Below, in pieces: positions 24,276 to 38,971 of a stretch of DNA of 59,728 nucleotides. The DNA comes from a virus. The stretch is taken from the IMG/VR virus record IMGVR_UViG_3300042914_003096, positions 1-59,728 of that record. The stretch is one strand, 5' to 3'. The notes under the pieces were generated by a model that saw nothing but the letters and a program-made list of their open reading frames with translations, did not search any database and had not been told where the DNA came from. Both the position numbers and the translations under genes were made by a program. The first letter of the stretch is position 1, and every line of letters starts with the position of its first letter.

Positions 24276-24290
24276 GATTATTGTTGTTTT

Positions 24291-24912: not shown

Positions 24913-24946
24913 CAAATTTTAATTTTGCCAATTAAAAAACTTTTTG

Positions 24947-24954: not shown

Positions 24955-24958
24955 TGAT

Positions 24959-25459: not shown

Positions 25460-25514
25460 AAAACTATGGTGAACAACTCTCTATGGTTCCACAAACAAAT
25501 AAAAAATAGAAATT

Positions 25515-25970
25515 ATGAACAGGGTTTTTAGAAAGGTTACCGGAGAATCTGTTCCTGATATTGTAAAACACACATTAGACATTGTAAATGACTGCCCCTG
25601 GATTGAAGTACATATTGGAACTGACTCACAAAACCATAGAAGAAGTACCATTTATGTTACGGCAATTGCTTATAGATTTGGGAACCGTGGCGTTCATTAC
25701 ATCTATCACAAACAAAAGGTAAAAAAGATCCGAGATAAATGGACACGTTTATGGAATGAAGCTGATTATTCAATTGAAGTTGCAGAGTGGTTGACCCAAA
25801 AGGTAAATGTAAAGGTGGAAATAGATTTAGATTACAACAGCGACGAAAAACACTTCAGCTCAAAATTGGTCCAACCTGCTGTTGGGTGGGCAACATCTTT
25901 GGGTTATAAAGCAAATGTTAAACCACATAACCAAATTGCAACAAGGGCGGCAGACCACCACTGCCGCTAA
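25515..25970 (+). CDS. YkuK-like RNase H-fold protein
   Basis: The 151-residue protein has the DUF458/YkuK pattern. An N-terminal SVPDIVKHTLDIVNDCPW helix is followed by IEVHIGTDSQNH with a metal-binding Asp, a strand-rich middle, IDLDYN with further Asp residues and KPHNQIATRAADHHCR at the end. The RNase H-like fold suggests nuclease or nucleic-acid binding. Next to tRNA-Cys, 5 nt downstream. A role in RNA processing is inference. Confidence 0.7.
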   Translation: MNRVFRKVTGESVPDIVKHTLDIVNDCPWIEVHIGTDSQNHRRSTIYVTAIAYRFGNRGVHYIYHKQKVKKIRDKWTRLWNEADYSIEVAEWLTQKVNVKVEIDLDYNSDEKHFSSKLVQPAVGWATSLGYKANVKPHNQIATRAADHHCR

Positions 25971-25975
25971 TTTAT

Positions 25976-26048
25976 GAGAGGTTGTCCGAGCGGCGTTAGG
26001 TCTATGGTTGCAACCCATAGTACGGGGGTTCGAGTCCCTCACCTCTCT
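25976..26048 (+). tRNA. tRNA-Cys(GCA)
   Basis: Acceptor GAGAGGT/ACCTCTC, anticodon loop TTGCAAC (GCA) on a TATGG/CCATA stem, T-arm GGGGG-TTCGAGT-CCCTC. Confidence 0.87.
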
Positions 26049-26056
26049 CAACATAT

Positions 26057-26130
26057 GCCCCTATGGTGGAATAGGTATACACGTCAGATTTAGGATCTGA
26101 ATTTTGCAGGTTCGAGTCCTGCTAGGGGTA
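26057..26130 (+). tRNA. tRNA-Leu(TAG) with short variable loop
   Basis: Acceptor GCCCCTA/TAGGGGT, anticodon arm TCAGA-TTTAGGA-TCTGA (TAG), T-arm GCAGG-TTCGAGT-CCTGC. The variable region is only a few nt although leucine tRNAs normally have a long arm. Its 3' end is duplicated at 26787. Confidence 0.8.
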
Positions 26131-26185
26131 CTAAACTTTTTTTAATATCGATATATTTATAATAAAAATATTGATATGAAAAAAA
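26109..26185 (+). repeat. Direct repeat copy 1 (tRNA 3' end, promoter, propeptide start)
   Basis: The 77-nt unit runs from the T-loop of tRNA-Leu through the TATTTATA promoter to the first codons of a propeptide gene. It is repeated almost exactly at 26787-26863, with the same 67-nt distance to the ATG. Confidence 0.9.
26154..26161 (+). promoter_or_regulatory. TATTTATA late-type promoter motif
   Basis: Lies 14 nt upstream of the ATG at 26176, inside the duplicated segment. Confidence 0.5.
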
Positions 26186-26739
26186 TTATAAGATTAACAG
26201 AATCAGATTTAACAAGGATTGTTAAACGTGTGATTAAAGAACAATCAACACCAACACCTAAACTTGAGGATTATGAAAAAACATTTTTAATAAAGTTATT
26301 AACTGACATAAAAAATATATTATCGGATATTTTTAAAAGAACCTACGATGAAAATTTAGATGAAGGAGACAGAGTACAAGTATTAACTATGTCAATTTTT
26401 GATGACTACATAAAAAAAGTGAGTGACTTGAATTACAAAATTAGACCGTCACAATTAAAATGGTCTGATTTATATGGTAGACTTAGCTCAAGTGATAGGT
26501 TAACTATATTGGAACCTAATAGGGCTAAAAGAATTTGGACATTTATCGCCCCTTACCTCATTTCAAATTCCGATGTTAGTGACAATAATATTTTTATAGA
26601 TTTATTTAAGGGTGAACTAAAAAATAATCTAAAAGAGTTTCTTAGTCGTCTAAAGTCTTATAATAAATATATTATACAGACAATCAGTTTACCAAAAAAA
26701 CCTTTACAACAAATACCAACAAATGACGAAACCCCCTGA
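26176..26739 (+). CDS. IRLTESDL-family propeptide protein, 187 residues
   Basis: MKKIIRLTESDL then TRIVKRVIKE, cut predicted at residue 22 before QSTP. The body is basic and helical with ILSDIFKRTYDENLDEGD and a Lys/Pro-rich end. No known domain. Promoter and leader belong to a segment duplicated 678 nt downstream. Confidence 0.75.
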   Translation: MKKIIRLTESDLTRIVKRVIKEQSTPTPKLEDYEKTFLIKLLTDIKNILSDIFKRTYDENLDEGDRVQVLTMSIFDDYIKKVSDLNYKIRPSQLKWSDLYGRLSSSDRLTILEPNRAKRIWTFIAPYLISNSDVSDNNIFIDLFKGELKNNLKEFLSRLKSYNKYIIQTISLPKKPLQQIPTNDETP

Positions 26740-26786
26740 ACTAACAATTAAAAAATCACAAAAAAACTTATTAAAGAATCTTTGAT

Positions 26787-26863
26787 GGTTCAAATCCTGC
26801 TAGGGGTACTAAACTTTTTTTAATATCGATATATTTATAATAAAAATATTGATATGAAAAAAG
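26787..26863 (+). repeat. Direct repeat copy 2 (orphan tRNA 3' end, promoter, propeptide start)
   Basis: Carries an orphan tRNA-Leu 3' fragment (CCTGCTAGGGGTA) with no 5' half, then the same promoter and leader as copy 1. Two T-loop bases differ from copy 1. Confidence 0.9.
26832..26839 (+). promoter_or_regulatory. TATTTATA late-type promoter motif
   Basis: Lies 14 nt upstream of the ATG at 26854, identical in context to the copy at 26154. Confidence 0.5.
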
Positions 26864-27126
26864 TAATTAGATTAACAGAATCTGATTTAACAAGAATTGT
26901 TAAACGTGTAATTAAAGAAACTCATCCATTAGAAGGTGGTCCTGGTTATATGACTAAACACCATATTGGTGTTCTTAAACGACTTATATCTGATTTAGAA
27001 AATGAAGATACAAGTAATCTATCGGATGAAAATTTAAGAGGATATTTTAAAACACTTAATCATCTTAAGAATGCACTTAAAGGGGCAAATGTTAAATATA
27101 AAGAAGAAACAGGTGAAGATATATAA
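26854..27126 (+). CDS. IRLTESDL-family propeptide protein, 90 residues
   Basis: MKKVIRLTESDL then TRIVKRVIKE, predicted cut before THPLEGG. The short helical body (HHIGVLKRLISDLENED) is different from the neighbours. Its leader arrived in a duplicated cassette with part of tRNA-Leu. Confidence 0.75.
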   Translation: MKKVIRLTESDLTRIVKRVIKETHPLEGGPGYMTKHHIGVLKRLISDLENEDTSNLSDENLRGYFKTLNHLKNALKGANVKYKEETGEDI

Positions 27127-27142
27127 AAGGTTTTAAATAAAA

Positions 27143-27469
27143 ATGAAAAAAGTTATTAGACTTACCGAATCTGATCTTGTAAGAATCGTTAAACGTGTAA
27201 TTAAAGAATCTAAATTCCGATCTCAATTCGGTGATATGGGTTATTGGATTGACGAAAAAGGTAATTGGGTGGAATTTGATAAGGATCTGGAAAAAACCGG
27301 ATATTATGATTTTGAATATGAACCATTCACCGATGTTGAAGATTATGAAGAATTACCTGACGATCTAAAAGAAAAACTATTTCCTGATAGTAAAATTGGT
27401 AGGGAATTTTTTAACAAGTACAAAGAAAAACATGGTAAGTTTCAGTACTCAAGAAAAAAAGATATATAG
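27143..27469 (+). CDS. IRLTESDL-family propeptide protein, 108 residues
   Basis: MKKVIRLTESDL then VRIVKRVIKE, predicted cut before SKFRSQ. The body has Trp/Gly and acidic patches (GDMGYWIDEKGNWVEF) and a basic tail. It is followed after 1 nt by a further family member, so the two are tandem. Confidence 0.75.
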   Translation: MKKVIRLTESDLVRIVKRVIKESKFRSQFGDMGYWIDEKGNWVEFDKDLEKTGYYDFEYEPFTDVEDYEELPDDLKEKLFPDSKIGREFFNKYKEKHGKFQYSRKKDI

Positions 27470-27470
27470 T

Positions 27471-27794
27471 ATGAAAAAAGTAATTAGATTAACAGAAAGA
27501 GATTTAACTCGTATTGTTAAACGAGTGTTTAAAGAAAATGAAGAGGATATGATTCGTATCCCAAGAGAATATAAAGGTATCAGAGCGGAAGTTGGATCAA
27601 AGGCGTCACCTCAAGACATTATTGATATGTATAACGAAGTGGTTGCTTCTGAAGGAGACACACCTTTTTTAGTTGAATATTCAGAATACGGAACTGAAGG
27701 TATGTTTTATAATGAAGAAGGTGATGAAATTCCTGTTGATGCTATTCTTGATGAATTAAACTATGGATTAGTTGGAGAAGAAGAAGATTTTTAA
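27471..27794 (+). CDS. IRLTESDL-family propeptide protein, 107 residues
   Basis: From the ATG at 27471: MKKVIRLTERDL then TRIVKRVFKE, cut predicted before NEEDM, here with V-F-K-E. The acidic body contains IPREYKGIRAEVGSKASPQD and ends GEEEDF. A frame extended to 27396 overlaps the preceding gene and is rejected because the family leader begins at 27471. Confidence 0.75.
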   Translation: MKKVIRLTERDLTRIVKRVFKENEEDMIRIPREYKGIRAEVGSKASPQDIIDMYNEVVASEGDTPFLVEYSEYGTEGMFYNEEGDEIPVDAILDELNYGLVGEEEDF

Positions 27795-27853
27795 AAAAAC
27801 TTGACACTTTTGAAAAGTTGTATATATTTATAACAAAAATAATAAAAACGCAA

Positions 27854-27928
27854 ATGAAAAATTTACATATTATATCTTTAAGAGGGTTGGCGGGTGCTGA
27901 GGATACTTTCTGTATGGAGATGGTATGA
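27854..27928 (+). CDS. Possible leader peptide, 24 residues
   Basis: MKNLHIISLRGLAGAEDTF is followed by a terminator, with a TATATTTATAAC motif upstream, mirroring the unit at 23107. It may be a leader peptide or noise. Confidence 0.3.
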   Translation: MKNLHIISLRGLAGAEDTFCMEMV

Positions 27929-27952
27929 TAATTTAACATATAAATTTTTCAA

Positions 27953-27980
27953 ACCCATCTCCAAAAGAGGTGGGTTTTTT
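27953..27980 (+). terminator. Rho-independent terminator
   Basis: ACCCATCTC-CAAAA-GAGGTGGGT with one mismatch is followed by six T residues. The rRNA-leader-like element starts immediately downstream. Confidence 0.8.
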
Positions 27981-27997
27981 GTTCTTTGACATATTGG
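27981..27997 (+). promoter_or_regulatory. rRNA-leader-like GTTCTTTGACATATTGG element
   Basis: Identical to the element at 23369. Here it precedes a TAACTTTG box (about 28016) and the gene at 28029. Confidence 0.4.
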
Positions 27998-28028
27998 TAA
28001 ATTAAAAATTAATTAGTAACTTTGTTTT

Positions 28029-28196
28029 ATGAAAGCAAAAGATAAAAATATCGTACATAATTTGATCATCGGATCCCAGAGACAAAAACAAGTTGATCAG
28101 GGATTCTTTGATGGTAGATTTGTTTCAAGAGTTTATGATTCAAATAAGAATTATACTCGAAAAGAAAAACATAAGAAAAATTATTTGGTATATTAA
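28029..28196 (+). CDS. Small basic protein
   Basis: A 55-residue basic frame, MKAKDKNIVHNLIIGSQRQ, ends KNYLVY and follows a TAACTTTG box by a few nt. It is Lys/Arg-rich and could bind nucleic acid. Not recognised. Confidence 0.55.
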   Translation: MKAKDKNIVHNLIIGSQRQKQVDQGFFDGRFVSRVYDSNKNYTRKEKHKKNYLVY

Positions 28197-28214
28197 AATA
28201 ATTTTATATCTTTG
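28185..28214 (+). promoter_or_regulatory. Promoter of a structured RNA region
   Basis: TTGGTA (28185) and TATCTTTG (28207-28214) with 19 nt after TTG. No gene starts until 28814, so the product is RNA. Confidence 0.65.
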
Positions 28215-28219
28215 TTATA

Positions 28220-28311
28220 CACATAAACCTAAGTACCCATACCGCTGACGGTGGGCTAAGTAAGATACAATTTCGTACCGCGGGAAGTAGAATGCTTAGG
28301 AGTGTGTTTAT
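28220..28311 (+). ncRNA. Folded 5' leader of the tRNA-like region
   Basis: ATAAAC/GTTTAT and CTAAG/CTTAG form a long bulged helix around a hairpin CCCATACCG-CTGA-CGGTGGG. It ends where the first Leu-like RNA begins. Confidence 0.5.
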
Positions 28312-28411
28312 AGTCAGGTGGCGGAATTGGTAACAGTTTATGGGCTATTAAGAATGCTGGTAACGGTAGATAGAGAGATTCTTAATGCAGGTTCAAGTCC
28401 TGTCCTGGCTG
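28312..28411 (+). tRNA. Leu-like tRNA with remodelled anticodon domain
   Basis: Acceptor AGTCAGG/CCTGGCT, a Leu-type D region GCGGAATTGGTAA and T-arm GCAGG-TTCAAGT-CCTGT are clear. Between them a perfect 9-bp stem ATTAAGAAT/ATTCTTAAT with a 22-nt apical loop replaces the usual anticodon and variable arms. No convincing anticodon can be assigned. Confidence 0.55.
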
Positions 28412-28414
28412 CAC

Positions 28415-28554
28415 GTTGAGGGTTCATCACCCCATAGTGTGCCCCACACGATGAGAAACGAAGTGATGTTTCGTAGGGGAACGTACTTTGTCGTATAGGG
28501 AGAACGACTAAGAAAGTAAGTTGTACTAAGTACAGTGGAAACACACACCTCAAC
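28415..28554 (+). ncRNA. Structured RNA domain between two Leu-like RNAs
   Basis: GTTGAGG (28415) pairs with CCTCAAC (28548), enclosing a multi-branched set of hairpins: GAAAC/GTTTC, TACTTT/AAAGTA with inner GTCGT/ACGAC, TGTAC-TAA-GTACA and GTG-GAAA-CAC. No reading frame of note. Between 28555 and 28670 further pairs are CCCACC/GGTGGG and TAACACC/GGTGTTA. Confidence 0.6.
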
Positions 28555-28670
28555 AGAGATGGACTGAAAGTTCGCTTGACTGGGAAAGACGAAATGAACT
28601 ATTCCTAACCCACCTTTATGGTGGGGACAACCATAACACCTGTAAGCTGGATAAATGAGGGTGTTACTTT

Positions 28671-28784
28671 AGTCAGGTGGCGGAATTGGTAGACGCAAAG
28701 ATGTTGTGAGTTGGTAGGTAATAACTACTTGGATAGTATCCACACTAGAACTCTCAAATACAGGTTCAAATCCTGTCCTGACTA
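28671..28784 (+). tRNA. Leu-like tRNA with inserted helix around the anticodon arm
   Basis: Acceptor AGTCAGG/CCTGACT, D-arm GCG-GAATTGGTAGA-CGC and T-arm ACAGG-TTCAAAT-CCTGT are regular. The middle is about 30 nt too long. TTGTGAGTT/AACTCTCAA (one mismatch) encloses a small anticodon-like arm GGTAG-GTAATAA-CTACT and a variable-like hairpin GGAT-AGT-ATCC. The anticodon reading is uncertain. 114 nt in total. Confidence 0.6.
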
Positions 28785-28813
28785 CAAAAAAAAATAATTT
28801 TATATAAATTAAT

Positions 28814-28990
28814 ATGGGAAAGGAAATATTTGAAGAATTGGAAAATGAAGTTAACCAAGTATTAGGTTACCTTCCAATTGATAGAGATTTGGTAAAGGAT
28901 TTGATTGATAAAGCAAAAGAAAAGATGAATCAAAAATTTGAGGAACTAAAGGATTTTGATACTTGGAAGGAATGGAAAAATAAAAAGTAA
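28814..28990 (+). CDS. Small helical protein
   Basis: A 58-residue charged protein, MGKEIFEELENEVNQVLG, mostly alpha helical with a final DTWKEWKNKK. Not recognised. It is the only protein gene between 28.2 and 29.9 kb. Confidence 0.6.
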   Translation: MGKEIFEELENEVNQVLGYLPIDRDLVKDLIDKAKEKMNQKFEELKDFDTWKEWKNKK

Positions 28991-28998
28991 AAAAAGAT

Positions 28999-29029
28999 TT
29001 GGTAGATTAAAATATTCTACTTATATTTG
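28999..29029 (+). promoter_or_regulatory. Promoter of an RNA gene cluster
   Basis: TTGGTA (28999) and TATATTTG (29022-29029) with 20 nt after TTG, upstream of folded RNAs and tRNAs. Confidence 0.65.
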
Positions 29030-29040
29030 TAAGACAAACA

Positions 29041-29080
29041 ACGGGGGTAGGAAGTTTAGAGATGAGTGTCCTACTCCCGT
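29041..29080 (+). ncRNA. Long leader hairpin
   Basis: ACGGG-G-TAGGA at the start pairs with TCCTA-C-TCCCGT at the end, a strong 11-12-bp stem around an AG-rich loop, shortly after the predicted transcript start. Confidence 0.6.
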
Positions 29081-29091
29081 AAAAAGAAGAA

Positions 29092-29106
29092 GTTCATTGA
29101 CATATT
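29092..29106 (+). promoter_or_regulatory. rRNA-leader-like GTTCATTGACATATT element
   Basis: Third copy of the element at 23369 and 27981, directly upstream of the closed RNA at 29114. Confidence 0.4.
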
Positions 29107-29113
29107 AAATAAA

Positions 29114-29202
29114 GGGATAAGGTAACCACGAACCCACTGGTAATAGGCCTTTCTTGAGATGGAATGCAAGATAGAATGTAACTCCTGCCTTATCCCCTTT
29201 TT
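29114..29202 (+). ncRNA. Small RNA closed by a 9-bp stem with T-run
   Basis: GGGATAAGG pairs with CCTTATCCC (29188-29196), followed by a T-run. Inside, TCTTG/CAAGA forms a hairpin. It is tRNA-sized, but standard D, anticodon and T arms cannot be placed on either strand. Confidence 0.5.
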
Positions 29203-29224
29203 AAAAATATTGTGGTTGTAAGAA

Positions 29225-29311
29225 AAGGGAAACTCGTTAAGTACATTAACCTGTTAACGCAAAATGGTGAAACGAGAGTGTGTGTTAACTACTGAACTAC
29301 ATTATTAAAAT
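29225..29311 (+). ncRNA. Folded spacer upstream of the mini tRNA
   Basis: CTCGTT/AACGAG encloses alternative TTAAC/GTTAA pairings. No reading frame of note. It may be the 5' part of a larger RNA that includes the tRNA-like element at 29312. Confidence 0.35.
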
Positions 29312-29366
29312 AGTTAGGTGGAGGGTTATAGGTGCTCCCACACAGGTTCAAGTCCTGTCCTAACTA
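29312..29366 (+). tRNA. 55-nt tRNA-like RNA lacking an anticodon arm
   Basis: Acceptor AGTTAGG/CCTAACT, D-arm GGAG-GGTTATAGGTG-CTCC and T-arm ACAGG-TTCAAGT-CCTGT are all well paired. The D and T arms are joined by only 3 nt, leaving no room for an anticodon arm. Acceptor and T-arm resemble the Leu-like RNAs at 28312 and 28671. Confidence 0.65.
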
Positions 29367-29372
29367 CACATT

Positions 29373-29441
29373 GCGGTTTAGTGTAATTGGTAGCACACGG
29401 GGCTCATAACCCTGAGGCCAGGTTCGAGTCCTGAATCCGCT
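29373..29441 (+). tRNA. tRNA-Met(CAT)
   Basis: Anticodon arm CGGGG-CTCATAA-CCCTG (CAT), D-arm AGTGTAATTGGTAGCAC, T-arm CCAGG-TTCGAGT-CCTGA. Acceptor GCGGTTT/AATCCGC has one mismatch. Confidence 0.82.
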
Positions 29442-29447
29442 ACAACA

Positions 29448-29580
29448 CGGATGAATAGGTGGAAGGGCCTTTCCTGAAAGATGGCTAGCTAGGCCCGTGT
29501 TCATCCTGAGCCAACCAAGCTTTACCACGATACGGGTTCATACCTGTGGGTTGGGGGTGACGATCAGGAAAGACTGATAA
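29448..29580 (+). ncRNA. Structured intergenic RNA with competing helices
   Basis: AACACGG can pair with CCGTGTT, and the overlapping GGATGAA with TTCATCC. These are mutually exclusive or pseudoknotted. A further stem CCAACC/GGTTGG (about 29522/29558) and ATCAG/CTGAT follow before tRNA-Ile. No gene. Confidence 0.45.
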
Positions 29581-29586
29581 ATTTAT

Positions 29587-29666
29587 GCTGACGTACCGGT
29601 GGATGCTTATATCATCTATGCCCGTAGAGGAAGTTTAAAACGTTGGTTCGATCCCAACCGTCAGTA
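29587..29666 (+). tRNA. tRNA-Ile(TAT) apparently lacking a D-arm
   Basis: Acceptor GCTGACG/CGTCAGT, anticodon arm GGATG-CTTATAT-CATCT (TAT, decoding AUA) and T-arm GTTGG-TTCGATC-CCAAC are clear. Only 7 nt separate acceptor and anticodon stem, so no D-arm fits. The variable region is about 24 nt with a TCTA/TAGA hairpin. Confidence 0.6.
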
Positions 29667-29672
29667 CAAAAA

Positions 29673-29756
29673 GATCAACTAGTCACTGTATCCAACCAGT
29701 GGGTGTCAGTAAGTATTCTGAGCGACGTTTAAATCCTGATAGCAATGTTGATTTTT
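29673..29756 (+). ncRNA. Small RNA closed by a short stem with T-run
   Basis: GATCAAC pairs with GTTGAT(T) before a T-run. Inside is CACTG-TATCCAAC-CAGTG, an anticodon-arm-like hairpin. The other tRNA arms are not identifiable. Similar in size to 24198 and 29114. Confidence 0.45.
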
Positions 29757-29761
29757 ATTTT

Positions 29762-29833
29762 GCGGGTATCGTATAATGGTTATTACTCCACACTTCCAAT
29801 GTGGAGATGAGTGTTCGATTCATTCTACCCGCA
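29762..29833 (+). tRNA. tRNA-Gly(TCC)
   Basis: Acceptor GCGGGTA/TACCCGC, anticodon arm TCCACA-CTTCCAA-TGTGGA (TCC), regular D- and T-arms. Confidence 0.88.
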
Positions 29834-29952
29834 CAAAAACGCTTTAAAGGATTGTGTACAGATCCAGAGTGGGGAGCGGGTCCCACATTTAATTTGATTT
29901 TAAAATAAAATATTGGTATATTTTTTTAAACTAAAAAAACAAATATGAAACA

Positions 29953-30165
29953 ATGAAAATTAAATTAGGATTGTGGTGGTTGGTAGGCACCACAATTATT
30001 TACATCTACATTATGAATCTATTTTTCAATTACGTGATTAATAGGGAAGTTGATGAAATCCTACAAATCGGTGCAAGTTTTATAGCTTTAATTTACACTG
30101 CATTTCAAATAAAGCAAATAGTAAAAGAAGTAATAAATTTATTTAAAAAAGAAGAAAAAGAATGA
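29953..30165 (+). CDS. Small two-segment membrane protein
   Basis: The 70-residue protein MKIKLGLWWLVGTTII has one hydrophobic segment at residues 5-25, a second weaker one around 40-55 and a basic tail. It overlaps the prohibitin-like gene by 4 nt, so the two are likely partners in the membrane. Confidence 0.65.
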   Translation: MKIKLGLWWLVGTTIIYIYIMNLFFNYVINREVDEILQIGASFIALIYTAFQIKQIVKEVINLFKKEEKE

Positions 30166-31064
30166 TTAGTGTAATTGTAACTGTAGTATTTTTGATCGTA
30201 GCAGGTGTTATGATCTTTAAATCAAGAATTGATGATGATAACGCGGCACTTGCAAAAGGGATTGTCGTTGGTGTTGTTGGTTTGGTAGTTGGTTTGATCC
30301 AACCTTATTCCCTTGAAAGAATTGATGCTGGACATAAAGGTATTGTTGTTAACCTTTCAGGATCTGAAAGAGGTGTATCTTCATACCAATACAAAACAGG
30401 TTGGGTTGTTTATAACACTTGGTTCACACAAGTTTTGGAGTTCCCAACTTATCAACAACATATTGAATATGATGATCAAATGGTAATAACAAAAGGAGGA
30501 TTTTCTGCAACAATTAAACCAAGTTTTAACTATTCATTAAAACCTGAAGCTATTGGTGATATGTTTGAAAATTTAAGATTGGGAGTTAAAGAAATTGAAC
30601 AAGGTTGGCTTAAAAATGCGATCATCGGGGCTGTTAATGACGTATCAAACACTTGGGAAGTGGATAGCATTTTTGGTCACAGACAGGCGTTTGAATCAAG
30701 TATCGTTGTTGAATGTAATAAAAGACTTGAAAAATGGTTTAACGTTTCACAACTTAGAACAAATATCACACCACCTGAAGCGTTACAAGAGGCAATTATT
30801 GCAAAAACCAAATCTATCCAACAAGCCGAAGCATCCGAACAACAAGCACTTGCGGCAATTGCGGATGGTAAAAGAAAGATCGCAGTTGCAAGAGCTGACT
30901 CGGCTGAAACTATCATTAATGCGAAGGCCGCCGCACTTGCAATGAAACTAAAACAACAAGAATTAACACCACTATATGTTGATTATGTTAAGGCTAACGC
31001 TTGGGATGGTAAACTTCCATCAACAATGACAAGTGGATCTGGAACATTTTTGAACATTAAGTAA
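30162..31064 (+). CDS. SPFH/prohibitin-like membrane protein
   Basis: After an N-terminal membrane anchor (residues about 1-50, two hydrophobic stretches), the SPFH/Band-7 domain follows: IDAGHKGIVVNLSGSERGV, then GWVVYNTWFTQVLEFPTYQQ and TIKPSFNYSL. An Ala/Gln/Glu-rich coiled coil, QAEASEQQALAAIADGKRKIAVARA interrupted, runs from about residue 220. Prohibitin-type proteins form large membrane rings and scaffold proteases. In a phage a role in membrane remodelling or superinfection control is inference. Coupled to the small membrane protein upstream. Confidence 0.82.
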   Translation: MISVIVTVVFLIVAGVMIFKSRIDDDNAALAKGIVVGVVGLVVGLIQPYSLERIDAGHKGIVVNLSGSERGVSSYQYKTGWVVYNTWFTQVLEFPTYQQHIEYDDQMVITKGGFSATIKPSFNYSLKPEAIGDMFENLRLGVKEIEQGWLKNAIIGAVNDVSNTWEVDSIFGHRQAFESSIVVECNKRLEKWFNVSQLRTNITPPEALQEAIIAKTKSIQQAEASEQQALAAIADGKRKIAVARADSAETIINAKAAALAMKLKQQELTPLYVDYVKANAWDGKLPSTMTSGSGTFLNIK

Positions 31065-31072
31065 AAAAAGAT

Positions 31073-31103
31073 TTGGTAGTTTGAAATAAACTACCTATCT
31101 TTG
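31073..31103 (+). promoter_or_regulatory. Promoter of a tRNA/ncRNA cluster
   Basis: TTGGTA (31073) and TATCTTTG (31096-31103) with 20 nt after TTG, 10 nt before the folded RNA at 31114. Confidence 0.65.
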
Positions 31104-31113
31104 TAAGACAAAC

Positions 31114-31172
31114 AAGATGAGTTTCCCAACACTAAATTGGGACAAGTGGTACACAAGTCCACGACTCATCTT
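31114..31172 (+). ncRNA. Small three-way-junction RNA
   Basis: AAGATGAGT pairs with ACTCATCTT (9 bp) and encloses two hairpins, CCCAA/TTGGG and GTGG/CCAC. It begins right after the predicted transcript start and ends 4 nt before tRNA-Glu, so it is either a leader domain or a processed small RNA. Confidence 0.6.
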
Positions 31173-31176
31173 AAAT

Positions 31177-31251
31177 GGTCCGTTCGTCTAGCTGGTTTAG
31201 GACACTTCCCTTTCACGGAAGAGATCACGGGTTCAAATCCCGTACGGACTT
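31177..31251 (+). tRNA. tRNA-Glu(TTC)
   Basis: Acceptor GGTCCGT/ACGGACT, anticodon arm CTTCC-CTTTCAC-GGAAG (TTC), T-arm CACGGG-TTCAAAT-CCCGT. Confidence 0.88.
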
Positions 31252-31311
31252 CAATTGGACGAACAACATTGCACACAAGTTGTACCTCTACGGTTTTAAA
31301 GTGTGTTTATT

Positions 31312-31382
31312 GGTCCATTGGTGTAATAGTAACATTTGTCCCTGTCACGGACAAGCCCTCGGAGCGTAACCGGGATGGACCG
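31312..31382 (+). tRNA. tRNA-Asp(GTC)
   Basis: Acceptor GGTCCAT/ATGGACC, anticodon arm TTGTCC-CTGTCAC-GGACAA (GTC), T-arm CTCGG-AGCGTAA-CCGGG. Confidence 0.86.
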
Positions 31383-31394
31383 CAATAATTAACT

Positions 31395-31469
31395 ATGATG
31401 CAAGTACTTTTAATATTTTTTATTGGTTATCTTTTTCTTATTAGAAAAAGAACTGATCGTAGATATTAA
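31395..31469 (+). CDS. Very small membrane peptide
   Basis: A 24-residue frame, MMQVLLIFFIGYLFLI then RKRTDRRY, gives a single hydrophobic helix with a basic tail. The shape suits a small phage membrane peptide, but size makes it uncertain. Confidence 0.4.
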   Translation: MMQVLLIFFIGYLFLIRKRTDRRY

Positions 31470-31539
31470 TTAATAATAGGTCCAGTTTCAGGTTGGAAAA
31501 GAGGTAGAAAGTTAAAATAAACAAATAAAAATTTTAGTT

Positions 31540-31722
31540 ATGAAAATGTTGATAACAATGAAAACCTTTATTACCAATATTTTCAAACACAAATGTGAAA
31601 ATGAAAGTAGGGTAATTGGAATTTATGGTGGCGAAAAAGTGAATGGAAAAGTCACCGACGTTACAATCAAATACAGATGTAGAGTATGTAACAACGTTTA
31701 TGAAGTGTGCCAAGTGTTATAA
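31540..31722 (+). CDS. Small Cys-containing protein
   Basis: The 60-residue frame contains HKCENES and YRCRVCNNVYEVC, a possible zinc-ribbon half. Basic N-terminus. It stands between tRNA-Asp and the tRNA-like gene at 31735. Not recognised. Confidence 0.55.
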   Translation: MKMLITMKTFITNIFKHKCENESRVIGIYGGEKVNGKVTDVTIKYRCRVCNNVYEVCQVL

Positions 31723-31734
31723 TCATAAACGGTA

Positions 31735-31804
31735 GGTCATTGAGCGTGTTGGAGAACGCACCCAGGTCATGGGAGAATAACAGGTTCGATTCCTGTAATG
31801 ACTT
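31735..31804 (+). tRNA. tRNA-like gene, anticodon uncertain (possible CAT)
   Basis: Acceptor GGTCATT/AATGACT, D-arm GCGT-gttggaga-ACGC and T-arm ACAGG-TTCGATT-CCTGT are good. The anticodon region CCCAGGTCATGGGAG pairs only as CCC/GGG, and no frame gives both a 5-bp stem and U33. If U33 is the T at 31767, the anticodon is CAT. Confidence 0.6.
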
Positions 31805-31813
31805 CAAAAATTT

Positions 31814-32084
31814 GCACCCGTAGCTCAGCTGGAATAGAGCAACTGCCTCAAATAGGGGGTGTTATATCAGAAATGGTATAATAGAATTCATCAAATTCGG
31901 GGAAGCCTTTAAAATGGTAATCCCGAGCCAAGCCCGAAAGGGAAGGTGTAGAGACTTGACGGTGAACACCTAAGTTGTAAAAAATAAGGTGATGAGAAAG
32001 TCCAGACCACAAACAGAAATGGCAGTGAAAACTGTAGTGGGAAGTCTAAGCAGTAGGTCCTTGGTTCGAATCCAAGCGGGTGTA
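31814..32084 (+). tRNA. tRNA-Arg(TCT) interrupted by a group I intron
   Basis: The 5' exon 31814-31848 gives acceptor GCACCCG, D-arm TAGCTCAGCTGGAATAGAGC and anticodon stem ACTGC plus CT. The 3' exon 32045-32084 starts TCTAA-GCAGT and continues with T-arm CTTGG-TTCGAAT-CCAAG and acceptor CGGGTGT. Joined, the loop is CTTCTAA with anticodon TCT. The splice follows U33. Confidence 0.88.
31849..32044 (+). ncRNA. Group I self-splicing intron, 196 nt, no ORF
   Basis: Core elements appear in the right order: P-like AATTCGGGGAAGCC, Q-like AATCCCGAGCCAAG, R-like GTAGAGACTTGACGG and S-like AGAAAGTCCAGACC. The 5' exon ends in U and the intron in G, as required. An internal guide AGGGGG can pair with the exon end GCCT, with a U-G wobble at the splice site. 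The core resembles introns of bacterial and cyanobacterial tRNA genes (IC3-like), as judged by eye. Confidence 0.85.
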
Positions 32085-32086
32085 CA

Positions 32087-32230
32087 AACAGGTAGGTGGA
32101 TTGTGTTACACACCCCACTGACGAGTGGGACGGTCCTAATAATAAGTTACGAAACGATATATCATTGAGCGATTCGGATCGGGTAACAAATATGGGCTAA
32201 GGGGGTTAGATTCCCCCACCTTGTCGATAT
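32087..32230 (+). ncRNA. Structured RNA with T-arm-like hairpin
   Basis: Contains CCCACT-GACG-AGTGGG, GTTAC/GTAAC enclosing CGAT-TCGG-ATCG, and a T-arm-like GGGGG-TTAGATT-CCCCC followed by ACC, which can pair with GGT near the 5' end (GGTGG/CCACC). It looks like a heavily expanded tRNA-like RNA. No anticodon assigned and no gene within. Confidence 0.5.
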
Positions 32231-32265
32231 TGACAAATATAAATTATTATACTACTATTACTTAA

Positions 32266-32338
32266 AGTCGGGTAGCTCAGTTGGTAGAGCAATCTCAAAA
32301 AAAGAGACGTGTCATTGGTTCAATCCCTTTCCCGACTT
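32266..32338 (+). tRNA. tRNA-like gene with an all-A anticodon loop
   Basis: Acceptor AGTCGGG/CCCGACT and D-arm TAGCTCAGTTGGTAGAGC are normal. The anticodon stem TCTC/GAGA closes a loop of seven A residues, so U33 is absent and the nominal anticodon is AAA. The T-arm is poorly paired. Possibly degenerate tRNA-Phe or a decoy. T-runs follow. Confidence 0.55.
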
Positions 32339-32363
32339 TTTTATATTTTTTTTCATTTACCAT

Positions 32364-33148: not shown

Positions 33149-33177
33149 AAAAAAGGGGTGTTAATCACCCTTTTTTT
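33149..33177. terminator. Bidirectional terminator
   Basis: A-run, stem GGGTG-TTAAT-CACCC and T-run lie between convergent genes ending at 33148 and 33176, so it can serve both strands. Confidence 0.75.
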
Positions 33178-33784
33178 ATTTTATATCTGTTGATTCAATC
33201 AAGGTATAACTAAACTTGTTACCATGAAGTTTTGAAGCCTTTTTACAAATTGACATGAATACATCAAAATCTTTTACACGTTTGAATACCTGACATCCCT
33301 CACTCCAATTTTCAACCCAAGTTGAATCAGTACCTGCTTTGTGGATATTGATACCAAACATTCCTGTATCCTTTTTTGTTTCTTCAAATACTAGATCTTT
33401 ATTTGCGTCTCTCCATACTGTAACGTTTCCGTTTCTTTGACAAAGTGCTTCGTACTTTCCTTGATGTTTATCAATTGACCATACTCCTCTGTATTGTCCA
33501 GGAACTAATCTTGCGACTCCGTTTTTGTTATGAAACTCCATAACACCTTTTTTACCTGGATCACAAGTTGCCATCCAGCAGTAAAACTGCCAAACACCTT
33601 TTTCATCTTTAAATGAAATTGTTAAATGATCGTCAAAGACATTTGTAACTTTTTTATATGTTGCAGGTGAAGTGTTTCTAACACCGACAATATTTACATC
33701 GTAACCTTTGTTTACGTTATCTTCAAACCAAACATACCCTTTTGATTTAACTGCCGTTTCTACTTGTTCTTTTGTGTAACTCAT
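33176..33784 (-). CDS. Putative L,D-transpeptidase-like or cell-wall protein
   Basis: The 202-residue protein contains GMFGINIHKAG, then NWSEGCQVF, an H...SxGC arrangement like the active site of YkuD-type L,D-transpeptidases. Upstream are strands KGYDVNIVGVRN and VPGQYRGVWSIDKHQG. Such a fold in a phage could edit or cut peptidoglycan crosslinks. A TATT-type late motif lies about 18 nt upstream on the minus strand. Assignment is by motif only. Confidence 0.55.
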   Translation of the reverse strand: MSYTKEQVETAVKSKGYVWFEDNVNKGYDVNIVGVRNTSPATYKKVTNVFDDHLTISFKDEKGVWQFYCWMATCDPGKKGVMEFHNKNGVARLVPGQYRGVWSIDKHQGKYEALCQRNGNVTVWRDANKDLVFEETKKDTGMFGINIHKAGTDSTWVENWSEGCQVFKRVKDFDVFMSICKKASKLHGNKFSYTLIESTDIK

Positions 33785-33849: not shown

Positions 33850-33857
33850 TATTTATT
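33850..33857 (+). promoter_or_regulatory. TATTTATT late-type promoter of the signalling/lysis cluster
   Basis: The box ends 3 nt before the ATG at 33861, the kinase gene that opens the cluster through the holin. Confidence 0.55.
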
Positions 33858-33860: not shown

Positions 33861-35459
33861 ATGACAAATAACCGTAAGATATTATTATACTCATCATTAT
33901 TTTTGATGGTGGTATTCCTTTTAACTAAAATCACTATATTAATAGGAATTATTAACCCCAACACGGCAACTAGGGTTATTGAAATGTCTTGTTTTTTAAT
34001 ATTTTCACCAATATTTTATTTTTTAATAAAATTACAAACTGTTGAGTTAAAAGGTAATTTAATAAAACAAATTAAAGACAGTGAGGAGTTTATTGATGCC
34101 GCAACAATTGTTTCTGTTGCCGATAAGTACGGTAAGATTACCTACGTTAATAAAAAATTTGAAGAAGTATCGGGATGGTCATTGGATGAGGTTAAAGGTA
34201 AGGATCATAGTGTTGTTAATTCTGGATTACAACCTGACGGGTATTGGGGTAAGATGTATGAAACCGTAATGAAAGGTGAAATATGGAATGATGTTGTAAC
34301 CAATAAAGGAAAGTCAGGTGAGTTATATTATGTTGACACATACATCAAAGCAAAATTTGATAAGGAGGGTAAATTAGAAGGATTTTCATCAATTAGACAA
34401 GACATTACTGAGCTTAAGAAAAAAGAAGTTGACATTCGTAATAGAATGAATGCTATAAATAAATCTAACGCAGTTATTGAGTTTGATTTAGAAGGGAACA
34501 TTATTTTTGCTAACGACTTGTTTTTAAATACTATGGGTTATTCTTCTCAAGAAGAAATAGTAGGTAAACATCATAGAATTTTTATAGACGAAGACCACTC
34601 AAAAAGTGAAGATTATTCTCTTTTTTGGAAAAAATTAAATGAGGGTATATTATTTACAGGTGAAATTACTAGGGTTAAAAAAGACGGTTCTTTAGTTTAT
34701 TTACAGGCAACTTATAACCCTATTCTTGGATTGGATGGTAAAATTTACCGTGTTATGAAAATCGCAACAGATGTATCCAATTCGTATGAACAAAGAAAAG
34801 AGATTGAAAAGAAAAACACTTACTTAGAACACGCAGCAAAGATATTAAGACACGACATGCATTCAGGTATTAACACATATATGCCAAGAGGGTTAAGTTC
34901 ATTGGAAAGAAGATTAAGTACCGATGACATTAGTTCATTAAAAATTGAGGCACCTATTAGAATGATTAAAGAAGGGTTGAAACATTCTCAAAAAGTTTAT
35001 AAAGGTGTTTATGAATTTACCAACCTAGTTAAAAAAGATGTTGTGTTAAATAAAACTGAATGTAATTTAAAAAACATTTTAGAAGATTACCTGTCATCAA
35101 CAGCGTATAGTAGTCAAGTTATTATTGATGAGTTACCAACAATAGAAGTAAATGAAGCATTGTTTTGTACCGCAGTGGACAACTTAATTAGAAACGGTTT
35201 AAAGTATAATGATTCAGATACTAAGTTTGTTAAAATATATTCTGATGAAAATAATATTTATATACAAGACAATGGTAGAGGGATTACACAACAAGATTTT
35301 GATTACCTACGTAAACCATACGTAAGAAAAGAAGGACAAACAGAATCAGGTACAGGTTTGGGTTTAAATATTTGCGTTGCAATTTTAGAAGAACATGGGT
35401 TTAACATTACCTGTGAGAAAAATGAAATAGGGACAAAAATGAAAATAAAAATAAAATAA
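33861..35459 (+). CDS. Membrane sensor histidine kinase with two PAS domains
   Basis: Two transmembrane helices lie within residues 8-70. A first PAS domain (IVSVADKYGKITYVNKKFEE onward, with the following PAC) is followed by a second (AVIEFDLEGNIIFANDLF onward). A dimerisation helix contains KILRHDMHSGINTY with the probable phosphoaccepting His near residue 333. The ATPase domain shows N-box VDNLIRNGLKYND, G1 IYIQDNGRGI and G2 GTGLGLNICVA. All kinase motifs look intact. The next gene is a receiver, and endolysin and holin follow, so I infer that a membrane or redox/ligand signal feeds into lysis control. Confidence 0.92.
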   Translation: MTNNRKILLYSSLFLMVVFLLTKITILIGIINPNTATRVIEMSCFLIFSPIFYFLIKLQTVELKGNLIKQIKDSEEFIDAATIVSVADKYGKITYVNKKFEEVSGWSLDEVKGKDHSVVNSGLQPDGYWGKMYETVMKGEIWNDVVTNKGKSGELYYVDTYIKAKFDKEGKLEGFSSIRQDITELKKKEVDIRNRMNAINKSNAVIEFDLEGNIIFANDLFLNTMGYSSQEEIVGKHHRIFIDEDHSKSEDYSLFWKKLNEGILFTGEITRVKKDGSLVYLQATYNPILGLDGKIYRVMKIATDVSNSYEQRKEIEKKNTYLEHAAKILRHDMHSGINTYMPRGLSSLERRLSTDDISSLKIEAPIRMIKEGLKHSQKVYKGVYEFTNLVKKDVVLNKTECNLKNILEDYLSSTAYSSQVIIDELPTIEVNEALFCTAVDNLIRNGLKYNDSDTKFVKIYSDENNIYIQDNGRGITQQDFDYLRKPYVRKEGQTESGTGLGLNICVAILEEHGFNITCEKNEIGTKMKIKIK

Positions 35460-35477
35460 AAAACAAAAAAAGAAAAA

Positions 35478-35915
35478 ATGATTGATTCAATTTTATTAGT
35501 AGATGATGAGGATTTATTCCACTTAGTGTTTGAAGATGCTTGTTCATTACTTGACATAAGTTTGTCTTTAAATGCCTTAAATAGTTCTGACGAAGCAGCA
35601 AAGAAATTTGAAAAATGGTTCAAAAGTGGGGATGATAACGATAAACCTGAATGTGTGTTTGTTGATTTAAACATCATTGGTAGTTCTTTTGATGGTATAG
35701 AACTAATTAGAAAAATTAATTTTGAATACGGTAATCACGTAGTTGTTGGGATCATATCATCATCAAATGAACCTGAAGAACAAGCAAAGGCAGTTCAGGC
35801 CGGAGCTCAATTTTGGATTATTAAATCTGACGACATTGAACCACGTTTAGAAGAATTTAGAAATGATTATGAAGGATATAAAAATAGAACACTACCATTT
35901 AAAGTTTACAAATGA
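35478..35915 (+). CDS. Stand-alone response-regulator receiver
   Basis: The 145-residue protein is a CheY-like receiver: DSILLVDDEDLFH (acidic pair), phosphoacceptor Asp in CVFVDLNIIG near residue 60, VVVGIISSSNEPEE with the Ser/Thr position, and WIIKSDD with the invariant Lys. No output domain follows, so it signals by protein contact. It starts 18 nt after the kinase and overlaps the next gene by 4 nt. Confidence 0.92.
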   Translation: MIDSILLVDDEDLFHLVFEDACSLLDISLSLNALNSSDEAAKKFEKWFKSGDDNDKPECVFVDLNIIGSSFDGIELIRKINFEYGNHVVVGIISSSNEPEEQAKAVQAGAQFWIIKSDDIEPRLEEFRNDYEGYKNRTLPFKVYK

Positions 35916-36589
35916 TAAAAATAGATAATAATACTAAAAAGATTTTGATGGAGTTATATCTTAAAAAAGGTATAGGTCTTGAGGGTAATATTACTAAACT
36001 CATTGATACCGAAAATGATGAAGATTTTAAAAACTATTTAAAAGATTGTGAAACAAAAGACGGAGACAAAAGAAAAAAACGTCTTGAGATGACAAAAAAA
36101 ATACAAAAACAAAATGAAGAACTGATAACGTTAAATGAAAAAAACAAAGAAATGATGGAGGATCTTCAGTTCACATTAAAAGAAGCTGAAGAACAAAAAG
36201 TAAAAATTGAAGTTCAGAACGGAGAGTTAATCGCTTGGAGAGAAGAAAACGAAAAAATACAACAAGACCTACAAAGAGAAATGATTAATTCTGAAAGTGC
36301 AAGAATACAAGCGGAGGAGGCAAAAACAAACGCATTAAACGACTTGGATATACTCCAAAAAAGAAACCAAACAGAACTTATTTCAACGATTGTTAGAGTT
36401 GCTCTATACATTATTGTTGGTGTTGGATTTATCACAACAGGGGTTTATGTATTTACTATGATTATGGGTAAAGATACTCAAGTAATAAGCGCAGCTTGGT
36501 CTAACATATTTGGAATACTTTTAACAAACGCGTTTTCAATAGTCGGAACCATTATGGGTATTAAGTATGCAACAGAAAATAAACAATAA
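35912..36589 (+). CDS. Coiled-coil protein with two C-terminal membrane helices
   Basis: A charged coiled coil covers residues 40-150 (MTKKIQKQNEELITLNEKNK region). Two transmembrane helices follow, IVRVALYIIVGVGFITTGVY and IFGILLTNAFSIVGTIMG. It overlaps the receiver gene by ATGA and ends 12 nt before the endolysin. By position it could be the receiver's output partner, for example an antiholin-like or holin-accessory protein. That role is inference. Confidence 0.8.
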   Translation: MIKIDNNTKKILMELYLKKGIGLEGNITKLIDTENDEDFKNYLKDCETKDGDKRKKRLEMTKKIQKQNEELITLNEKNKEMMEDLQFTLKEAEEQKVKIEVQNGELIAWREENEKIQQDLQREMINSESARIQAEEAKTNALNDLDILQKRNQTELISTIVRVALYIIVGVGFITTGVYVFTMIMGKDTQVISAAWSNIFGILLTNAFSIVGTIMGIKYATENKQ

Positions 36590-36601
36590 AACTTAAAAAT
36601 T

Positions 36602-37429
36602 ATGTTATTAAAAGTAGGATCAAAAGGAACTGATGTTGTTGAACTACAAAAAAAACTCGGACTTACTGCTGATGGTAGTTTTGGTCCAAAAACTGAAGCA
36701 GCTGTTAAAGCTTGGCAAACAAAAAATGGATTAACTCCTGATGGAACAGTTACGTCGGCAAATAAAAGTTGGGACCTAATGTTTGGAACCAATTTAATAA
36801 AAGAAGATGTTGTAATTGCAAAAGTAGAAGGGTTAAACATAGATAAACTTAAAGGTCACATCCCTGATGTTGTTTTAGCACAAATAGCTGAAACTGCGCA
36901 GAAATTTAACATCACAACTAATTTAAGACTAGCACACTTTTTAGCACAATGTGCCCACGAATCAGGAAACTTTAAAGCCGTTTCAGAAAATTTAAATTAT
37001 TCTGCAGACGGACTAAGAAAAATATTCGGTAAATACTTTCCAAGCACACTTGCTGAATCATATGCAAGACAACCTGAAAAAATTGCATCAAGAGTATATG
37101 CAGATAGAATGGGTAACGGAAATGAAACATCAAAAGAAGGTTTTAAATTTAGAGGTAGAGGTTACATCCAATTAACCGGAAAATCAAATTATTCTAATTT
37201 TTCAAAATTTATTGGTGAAGATTGTGTTACAAATCCTGATCTTGTTGCTACTAAATATCCACTAGCATCGGCAGCATTTTTCTTTAACAATAATGGTCTT
37301 TGGGGTGTCTGTGACAAAGGATCTGATGATGTTACGGTAACCGCCGTTACAAAAAGAGTTAACGGAGGAACTAATGGGTTGGCAGACAGGGTAAAACACT
37401 TCAAAGAGTTCTTTAACCTACTTAAGTGA
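36602..37429 (+). CDS. Endolysin: peptidoglycan-binding domain plus GH19 lysozyme
   Basis: Residues 1-60 form a PG_binding_1 domain (GSKGTDVVELQKKLGL...DGSFGPKTEAAVKAWQ). From residue 85 a family-19 glycoside hydrolase follows: LAHFLAQCAHESGNF with the catalytic Glu, KFRGRGYIQLTGKSNY, then SAAFFFNNNGLW. GH19 phage lysozymes cut the glycan of peptidoglycan. No signal peptide, so release needs the adjacent holin. Downstream of the two-component genes. Confidence 0.92.
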   Translation: MLLKVGSKGTDVVELQKKLGLTADGSFGPKTEAAVKAWQTKNGLTPDGTVTSANKSWDLMFGTNLIKEDVVIAKVEGLNIDKLKGHIPDVVLAQIAETAQKFNITTNLRLAHFLAQCAHESGNFKAVSENLNYSADGLRKIFGKYFPSTLAESYARQPEKIASRVYADRMGNGNETSKEGFKFRGRGYIQLTGKSNYSNFSKFIGEDCVTNPDLVATKYPLASAAFFFNNNGLWGVCDKGSDDVTVTAVTKRVNGGTNGLADRVKHFKEFFNLLK

Positions 37430-37464
37430 TATTTATTACAAAATAAACCATAAAAAATAATTTT

Positions 37465-37632
37465 ATGAAATTTACAAGAGAACAAGTTATGGGTGTGGTA
37501 AGACACACATTAACATTCTTAGGTGGTATTGCAATTGCTAAAGGATATGCTTCAGACGCAACTGTAACAGAAATAATCGGTGCAGTAGTAACACTTGTTG
37601 GTGCCGTTTGGTCAGTAATGGCAAAAAAATAA
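37465..37632 (+). CDS. Holin (Pam3 gp28-like)
   Basis: The 55-residue protein MKFTREQVMGVVRHTLTF has two hydrophobic segments (LGGIAIAKGYASD around 19-31 and EIIGAVVTLVGAVWSVMA around 36-53). The VRHxLTxxGG pattern is seen in Pam3 gp28-type holins. It follows the endolysin and is closed by a terminator. It is expected to form the membrane lesion that lets the endolysin out. Confidence 0.8.
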   Translation: MKFTREQVMGVVRHTLTFLGGIAIAKGYASDATVTEIIGAVVTLVGAVWSVMAKK

Positions 37633-37657
37633 TTTTTTAGTTTAATTAATTTATGTA

Positions 37658-37683
37658 ACCCCACTCAAAAGGTGGGGTTTTTT
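37658..37683 (+). terminator. Terminator of the lysis cluster
   Basis: AACCCCACT-CAAA-AGGTGGGGTT is followed by T residues. Confidence 0.85.
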
Positions 37684-37694
37684 AATTTAAATGA

Positions 37695-37702
37695 TATTTA
37701 TA
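37695..37702 (+). promoter_or_regulatory. TATTTATA late-type promoter motif
   Basis: Located 7 nt upstream of the ATG at 37710. Confidence 0.5.
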
Positions 37703-37709
37703 AATTAGT

Positions 37710-38318
37710 ATGGAAAATTTGACAGGGATCATAATTGCATTTATAACGGGAGTTATAGGTCCAATACTTGTAATGTATATTAAAAACAAACTTGAAAAAA
37801 AAGAAAAACCCGATATGGTTATGGACACACTTCGTGTAAGTGAGTTAATAAATTCAAAAATTGAACACATAAGAGAAGAATTTGATGCTGATCGTGTTTG
37901 GGTTACACAGTTCCATAACGGAGGAAACTTTTACCCGACAGGAAAATCAATGGCAAAATTTTCAATTATGTATGAGGCGGTAAATTCTGGAGTATCATCA
38001 GTTCAAACAAATTTTCATAACATTCCTGTAAATTTATTTTCTAAATCTATTAATCAATTATATAATAACGATGTGATTGAAATTCCTGATTATAAAGATG
38101 AAACAGTTGCGACTTTTGGTTTAAAGTATATTGCTCAAGATACAGGATGTAAGTCAGGTTATTTATTTGCAATTAAAACAATAGATGAAAAATTTATTGG
38201 AACACTTGGTCTTGATTATACAAAAAGAAAAACTAAGTTAGATATCGAAGCAATAAATCATCTTATGGTACACGCATCATCAATTGGAGGTGTACTTATG
38301 ACACACTTAGAAAAATGA
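37710..38318 (+). CDS. Membrane-anchored GAF-domain protein
   Basis: An N-terminal transmembrane helix (LTGIIIAFITGVIGPILVMY) is followed by a single GAF-like domain with DRVWVTQFHNGGNFYP, a central strand-helix region and a GTLGLDY strand. GAF domains bind small ligands such as nucleotides or haem. There is no enzymatic output domain. Lying just beyond the kinase/receiver/lysis genes, it may be another sensor in the same decision. It overlaps the next gene by 4 nt. Confidence 0.75.
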   Translation: MENLTGIIIAFITGVIGPILVMYIKNKLEKKEKPDMVMDTLRVSELINSKIEHIREEFDADRVWVTQFHNGGNFYPTGKSMAKFSIMYEAVNSGVSSVQTNFHNIPVNLFSKSINQLYNNDVIEIPDYKDETVATFGLKYIAQDTGCKSGYLFAIKTIDEKFIGTLGLDYTKRKTKLDIEAINHLMVHASSIGGVLMTHLEK

Positions 38319-38971
38319 GAAAAAGTTTAATAATTGAAAATATCGTAAAAAAGATTACAAAAAATATACTTTCTGAAGGATCTTTAGATAAACCAATCCT
38401 TGATATATCAAGAGAAGTTATAAGGTTATTTAAAAATGAAGAAAGTGATGAGTTCACATATGTTTTTTACAGAAGTGGAGAAGAAATTCAACTTTTAGTT
38501 GAGGTTGATTTTGAAGTTGTGGAAAATCATAATGAACCTTTTGAGGTTTATGGAGAAGCTGGATATGATGAACTTTATGTACTAATAATATATGATCCAC
38601 AAGTATTTCCTTCCTCAATGAATGATTTGGTTGCTGAAGTTAAAGAAACAATAACTCACGAATTGGAACATATTGTGCAGCAAAATTTTGAAGATGCATA
38701 TATAAGTCCACATGAAAGTGATTACTCCCAAGACAAAAGAGGTGGTGGATTTAATTACTATGTTAAAAAAATTGAAATTCCTGCTTTTGTTAAAGGACTT
38801 ATAAAAAGGGCCCGTACCAAAAAGATAAGTTTGGATATGGCTATGGATGAGTGGTACAAAGAAAACCATAGAAACTTTGAAAATGAAAATGACTGGAAAG
38901 ACGTTAAAAGAATTTGGATTGATTATGCAAATGAAATGAGAAAAAAAGAAAAAGTTAAAAAATTCAAATAA
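38315..38971 (+). CDS. HExxH metalloprotease with propeptide-like N-terminus
   Basis: The start MRKSLIIENIVKKITKNILSE then GSLD is an amphipathic basic leader ending I-L-S-E, consistent with prohead-protease cleavage at residue 21. TITHELEHIVQQNF near residue 113 is a zincin HExxH site, and IEIPAFVKGL, 45 residues on, offers the third Zn ligand Glu. I infer a zinc protease packaged in the head and active after injection or during assembly. Overlaps the GAF gene by ATGA. Confidence 0.78.
   Translation: MRKSLIIENIVKKITKNILSEGSLDKPILDISREVIRLFKNEESDEFTYVFYRSGEEIQLLVEVDFEVVENHNEPFEVYGEAGYDELYVLIIYDPQVFPSSMNDLVAEVKETITHELEHIVQQNFEDAYISPHESDYSQDKRGGGFNYYVKKIEIPAFVKGLIKRARTKKISLDMAMDEWYKENHRNFENENDWKDVKRIWIDYANEMRKKEKVKKFK

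Follow-up and report, generated by a model that had tools for sequence, protein, structure and literature searches.

The stretch of DNA considered here, called the window throughout, is the whole of the 59,728-base virus record IMGVR_UViG_3300042914_003096, which IMG/VR classes as linear, a label that often means a fragment. A listing of open reading frames, Pfam searches and a terminator scan place on its plus strand five intact consecutive genes followed by one terminator. These encode a membrane histidine kinase (HK, 532 amino acids, 33861–35459) in which Pfam recognizes two PAS domains and a HATPase_c domain, a stand-alone receiver without an output domain (RR, 145 amino acids, 35478–35915; Response_reg, 2.4e-8), a membrane protein composed of a head, a coiled coil and two transmembrane helices, TM1 and TM2 (CC, 225 amino acids, 35912–36589), a GH19 endolysin (275 amino acids, 36602–37429; PG_binding_1 and Glyco_hydro_19), and a holin of the Pam3 gp28 family, PF23987 (55 amino acids, 37465–37632; Phage_holin_10, 2.8e-17). 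The spacings between successive genes are 18, −4, 12 and 35 nucleotides, the negative value being a four-nucleotide ATGA overlap of RR and CC. The intrinsic terminator (37657–37679, plus strand) has a 9-bp stem with five GC pairs and a T-rich tail, and is the only plus-strand terminator-like site within 33861–38318. The first-pass annotation, made from the letters alone, had described these same five genes, and the analysis bears that description out; it had also read their order as suggesting signal-controlled lysis timing, with CC as the output that gates the holin, a proposal that is weighed below.

The features that define a histidine kinase are present in HK, namely the predicted phospho-acceptor histidine (His331, 34851–34853, plus strand), the N-box asparagine (Asn445), the G1 aspartate (Asp470) and the ATPase domain (HATPase_c, 1.8e-14), the three residues being invariant in 67/67 non-redundant relatives. 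The DHp/CA region can be aligned with 2c2a, and hydropathy places two transmembrane helices at residues 13–31 and 39–57, only about eight residues apart. Across the 67 relatives the length ranges from 417 to 740 amino acids, with the variation mainly at the sensor end. By sequence similarity the first PAS domain (PAS1, 34089–34412, plus strand) is closest to the redox-type PAS domains of MmoS (3ewk, 7.6e-25), Aer (8dik, 1.1e-17) and NifL (2gj3, 4.2e-9), all of which we take to be FAD proteins. In the receiver, the acidic pair (D9 and D10), the phospho-accepting aspartate (D63), the Ser/Thr position (S94) and the lysine (K116) are invariant, mean column identity is 87% among 27 diverse members, and the protein is a bare receiver with no DNA-binding part. 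In about 29% of testable loci (28/97) two kinases precede a single receiver. The second of these kinases begins with a signal peptide and combines a large external segment with one transmembrane helix, and a small secreted coiled-coil protein often lies between the two. This intervening protein forms a family of about 200 amino acids (f15; L194:8215-8829 and relatives, 20 copies) and may either partner the second kinase in the periplasm or be spanin-like.

Hydropathy places the transmembrane helices of CC at residues 156–174 and 199–217, and an alignment of relatives resolves a head that is conserved, a coiled coil that differs in length through deletion, and the two helices, of which TM2 is nearly invariant (GILLTNAFSIVGTIMG(V/I)KY, with TM2 being GILLTNAFSIVGTIMGVKY). 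An AlphaFold (AF2) model agrees with the alignment, giving a small head, a single very long helix and a second membrane helix. CC matches nothing in Pfam and nothing informative among PHROGs, and no relative with a known function was found: PDB sequences, PDB folds, BFVD, Pfam and PHROGs yielded only coiled-coil noise, bar one uncharacterized phage relative (A0A6J5PRT3). Its distribution is strongly skewed, with more than 500 viral contigs among the matches listed against a single contig, belonging to an uncultured bin, in a set of 84,980 species genomes of bacteria and archaea.

Comparison of related phages, all of them metagenomic contigs and many partial, reveals that the conserved unit comprises the three genes HK, RR and CC and not all five. 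CC follows RR in 129/129 testable contigs, HK lies within 1.5 kb ahead of RR in 103/106, and the start and stop codons of RR and CC overlap in 126/131 contigs, which suggests coupled translation. Conservation of the exact five-gene order, the check that the first-pass annotation had proposed, is ruled out, as that order is the arrangement of one lineage; the HK-RR-CC module itself was found in at least hundreds of viral contigs. Among INPHARED phages tblastn found no relative of RR or CC, and kinase matches there arise mainly via PAS. Given the hundreds of viral contigs, the lack of an INPHARED match and the single bacterial or archaeal contig, we treat HK-RR-CC as phage-specific, and the earlier claim of a dedicated phage two-component system is supported. 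The module could alternatively be a captured host system that rewires host signalling, and the HK core does resemble cellular kinases of the HK853 type. We consider this very improbable, since CC is essentially absent from bacteria, RR is so well conserved across diverse phages and lacks a DNA-binding output, and some phages drive the CC membrane domain with no RR at all; as a principal explanation, host gene capture was rejected because CC is phage-only.

The hosts are probably Bacteroidota, judging from the similarity of the endolysins to those of Flavobacterium and Cellulophaga phages and from a neighbouring gene that encodes a type IX secretion domain. In some relatives a phage gene of family f43 (L040:501-2705) adjoins the kinase, and its sorting domain for type IX secretion (CHU_C) points to Bacteroidota hosts. 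Many of these phages also carry a full-length DnaK-like chaperone gene (family f8; L137:12122-13984 and relatives) close to the module.

The strongest new evidence comes from the domain formed by TM1, the loop and TM2 (36377–36562, plus strand), which in phages that lack RR also occurs fused straight to PAS domains. A gene in which two PAS domains are joined directly to this membrane domain (L063:2553-3668), flanked by a holin-like gene with two transmembrane helices, a nuclease-like gene and the recurrent module neighbour UPm, led to a class of such proteins, here called PAS-TM fusions. Scans that used short motifs from this membrane domain, and so did not depend on HK, RR or lysis genes, returned, once near-duplicates were removed, the two classes in similar numbers, 35 HK-RR-CC loci and 38 PAS-TM fusions. 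RR was absent from 13/13 larger PAS-TM records, and each of 30/30 large records carried exactly one copy of the membrane domain, although in two of the 30 the single gene was reported in two pieces that overlap. The presence of this domain, in single copy, under both types of input and in lysis cassettes argues that it is a constant output with interchangeable inputs, so that, as far as sequence comparison can tell, it has two kinds of driver, of which kinase and receiver are one. CC is likely to be the output, as had been proposed at the outset; the evidence is the RR-CC start/stop overlap and the fusion of PAS to the same membrane domain in phages that lack RR.

Linkage to lysis genes is evident for both classes. 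Among testable loci, defined as those with 1.5 kb of sequence on both sides, an endolysin (16) or UPm (1) lies within 1.5 kb in 17/17 PAS-TM loci, and one or the other does so in 6/9 HK-RR-CC loci. Endolysin density is 0.32 per kb over the kilobase nearest to the domain and drops with distance to 0.115, 0.013 and then 0; around capsid and polymerase genes, 240 kb examined as a control contained none. Of 24 large records, 20 carry GH19, and in 11 of these it lies no more than 4 kb from RR, against 1.1 expected; 0/20,000 random placements reached 11, and the amidase_2 genes of the same large records, serving as a negative control, were not linked to RR. The adjacent endolysins belong to four classes (GH19, GH24, M15 and amidase_2) and lie upstream, downstream or divergent: GH19 may be downstream of CC or divergent upstream of HK, GH24 may be upstream with UPm and holin_4_1, and an amidase may be upstream with a holin. 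These differing arrangements and enzyme classes argue against simple inheritance of one order.

Several observations weigh in the opposite direction. In the remaining large records GH19 is farther from RR, up to 75 kb, or was not found, and eight records (G005, G007, G009, G012, G015, G017, G019 and G021) have no GH19, GH24 or M15 endolysin within 10 kb. Kinase and receiver genes far from lysis genes, which the first-pass annotation had named as evidence against its proposal, were thus encountered in part, with GH19 or GH24 at 10–75 kb from RR in 8/24 large records, one of which has M15 at 1.6 kb; one further large record has neither GH19 nor GH24. The PF23987 holin is within 3 kb of the module in just 3/10 of the records that carry it. 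The phages are also related, which weakens the permutation test, so that the true significance of the linkage between GH19 and RR is lower than it appears. An endolysin and a holin both stand beside the module in the window, and in relatives such neighbours are strongly enriched without being universal.

The large phages in which the module lies 10–75 kb from known lysis genes, together with the many membrane genes of unknown function among its neighbours, would suit a module whose sensing of envelope or energy stress serves some other end, such as superinfection exclusion, membrane protection or host takeover, and which merely shares a neighbourhood with lysis genes. We hold this to be improbable, because the linkage is tight and recurs with four Pfam-defined endolysin classes in differing orders, and because PAS-TM fusions in the testable sample always adjoin an endolysin or UPm. 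We prefer to regard HK-RR-CC as a phage-specific signalling module that controls lysis, a reading to which we assign a probability of roughly 0.6. Of the original proposal, the association with lysis survives, at a level far above chance, and signal-controlled lysis is well supported, with gating of the holin by CC as one possible form of it; the five-gene order from which the proposal was drawn is confined to one lineage.

If lysis is the end point, CC and the PAS-TM fusions could also act more directly, as holin-type lesion formers, probably with both termini inside the cell, that are triggered by the coiled coil or by PAS, the annotated holin then being a second holin or an antiholin. Such a role would fit the two-helix C-terminal domain with its short loop and nearly invariant TM2, the single copy per record, and the endolysin or UPm gene that lies immediately 3' of CC or PAS-TM, at −38 to 139 nucleotides, in 19 sampled loci. 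Class II holins of the S21 type likewise have two transmembrane helices, and CC shares their probable N-in/C-in topology; CC differs in carrying a long conserved cytoplasmic head with a coiled coil or PAS, and no homology was found. CC could itself be a holin or antiholin, but we think it rather unlikely that it is the lesion former, since other holin-like genes (HOL4 and the g1 family) often adjoin, no Pfam, PHROG or fold search matched CC to any holin, and a protein of 190–370 amino acids with a long cytoplasmic coil is unlike known holins. The g1 family (f11/g1; L010:6488-6748, L344) consists of holin-like membrane proteins of 80–90 amino acids, seen 39 times in 76 sampled loci with no convincing Pfam match, and is a candidate new holin family. 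UPm, present in the window upstream of and divergent from HK (33176–33784, minus strand; phrog_3000, 5.9e-32; phrog_33083 "endolysin", 9e-11), has the invariant motif GINIHKAG..(W/Y)S(E/H)GCQVFK. It is possibly an L,D-transpeptidase-like cell-wall enzyme, as the motif fits, but identification as an L,D-transpeptidase was set aside, the best Foldseek match being a non-significant one to DpaA (E 0.18).

A promoter-like motif, TATTTAT, bears on how the genes of the window may be expressed. It precedes 22 window genes against 2.8 expected (7.8-fold), mostly 4–15 nucleotides 5' of the start codon (for example at 860, 7828, 12341, 19686, 33850, 37695 and 58012), and should it prove to be a promoter, many transcripts would have almost no leader. 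One copy (33850–33856, plus strand) lies four nucleotides ahead of the HK start codon, and in relatives the motif precedes the leading HK in at least 42/70 distinct upstream regions, an undercount because some start codons were called too early. It is found before the holin gene in 12/12 relatives (in the window at 37430–37436, plus strand) and before divergent GH19 genes in 9/9, and is absent before RR (0/75), CC (0/75), second kinases (0/15) and GH19 genes directly after CC (0/24). The contrast between the two positions of GH19 indicates that an endolysin gene after CC probably shares the HK transcript, and the pattern as a whole predicts that in the window HK, RR, CC and the endolysin share a single transcript and that the holin, which has its own motif, may also be transcribed separately. 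TATTTAT was rejected as a marker of late genes, as it is not directly 5' of most major capsid protein genes and has a similar density around those and around DNA polymerase genes.

Under the signalling interpretation, HK, held in the membrane by two helices that leave hardly any external loop, would monitor the infected cell for its energy, redox or membrane state and would phosphorylate RR. Having no DNA-binding part, RR would then act on the translationally coupled CC, through contact with its cytoplasmic head or coiled coil, and this contact may shift the state of the two-helix membrane domain, which in turn would set the timing of the holin and endolysin step, whether as a brake or as a trigger. 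In other phages PAS domains would drive the same membrane domain directly within one polypeptide. A wider proposal, to which we give somewhat less than even odds, is that the lysis cassettes of many uncultured phages, whose hosts are probably Bacteroidota, contain a single-copy membrane effector that is confined to phages and acts like a signal-gated lysis valve, driven either directly by a redox-type PAS or by a complete kinase-receiver phosphorelay, and that this is a categorically new lysis decision. If this is true, hundreds of environmental phages would time lysis by a classical phosphorelay or its PAS-gated version. This would define a set of genes, offer energy or redox state as a signal open to testing, and put a name to a membrane protein family not described before.

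To our knowledge, control of lysis timing by a sensed signal is known in detail for few systems only, chiefly T4-type lysis inhibition. That system is built on holin T with antiholins RI and RIII (PMC11413866, PMC8385771, PMC6832632) and is also represented in ICP1 (PMC7182436). The proposed module would resemble it in that the phage itself encodes a sensory input that tunes when the holin brings about lysis; in T4, however, a periplasmic antiholin binds the holin directly, whereas here PAS with a phosphorelay, or PAS alone, would act on a coiled-coil protein with two transmembrane helices. Canonical bacterial two-component systems, with HK853-type kinases and CheY-like single-domain receivers, share the invariant histidine, N-box asparagine, G1 aspartate, and receiver aspartate and lysine as well as an HK853-like core, while the present system is phage-encoded, has a dedicated phage-only membrane partner and lacks a DNA-binding output. 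MmoS, Aer and NifL are the nearest solved structures to PAS1 by sequence similarity, and the output here is linked to lysis rather than to transcription or taxis. A survey of 224 jumbo phages described a divergent REC domain, cREC, never found in histidine kinase signalling systems (PMC7824862); it too is a receiver-like domain in large phages, but RR is canonical and lies directly 3' of a kinase gene. Our literature search turned up no report linking a phage two-component system with lysis; subscription papers lay outside the search, so absence is unproven.

Beyond the terminator lies a gene for a 202-amino-acid protein (37710–38318, plus strand) with its own TATTTAT motif, which had been annotated as a membrane GAF protein. 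Hydropathy does indicate one transmembrane helix, but Pfam gave no GAF match and the family is not recognized; its PHROG matches are only to families of unknown function, and with conservation limited to relatives near the lineage of the window it falls outside the conserved core. The gene that overlaps it (38315–38971) encodes a HELEH motif (ITHELEHIVQ) resembling a zinc metalloprotease site. Elsewhere in the window, 15 tRNA genes with differing anticodons lie at 23285–32339, and the genes at 26176–26739 and 26854–27126 share an identical upstream stretch (26120–26200 and 26797–26880), which suggests a tandem duplication.

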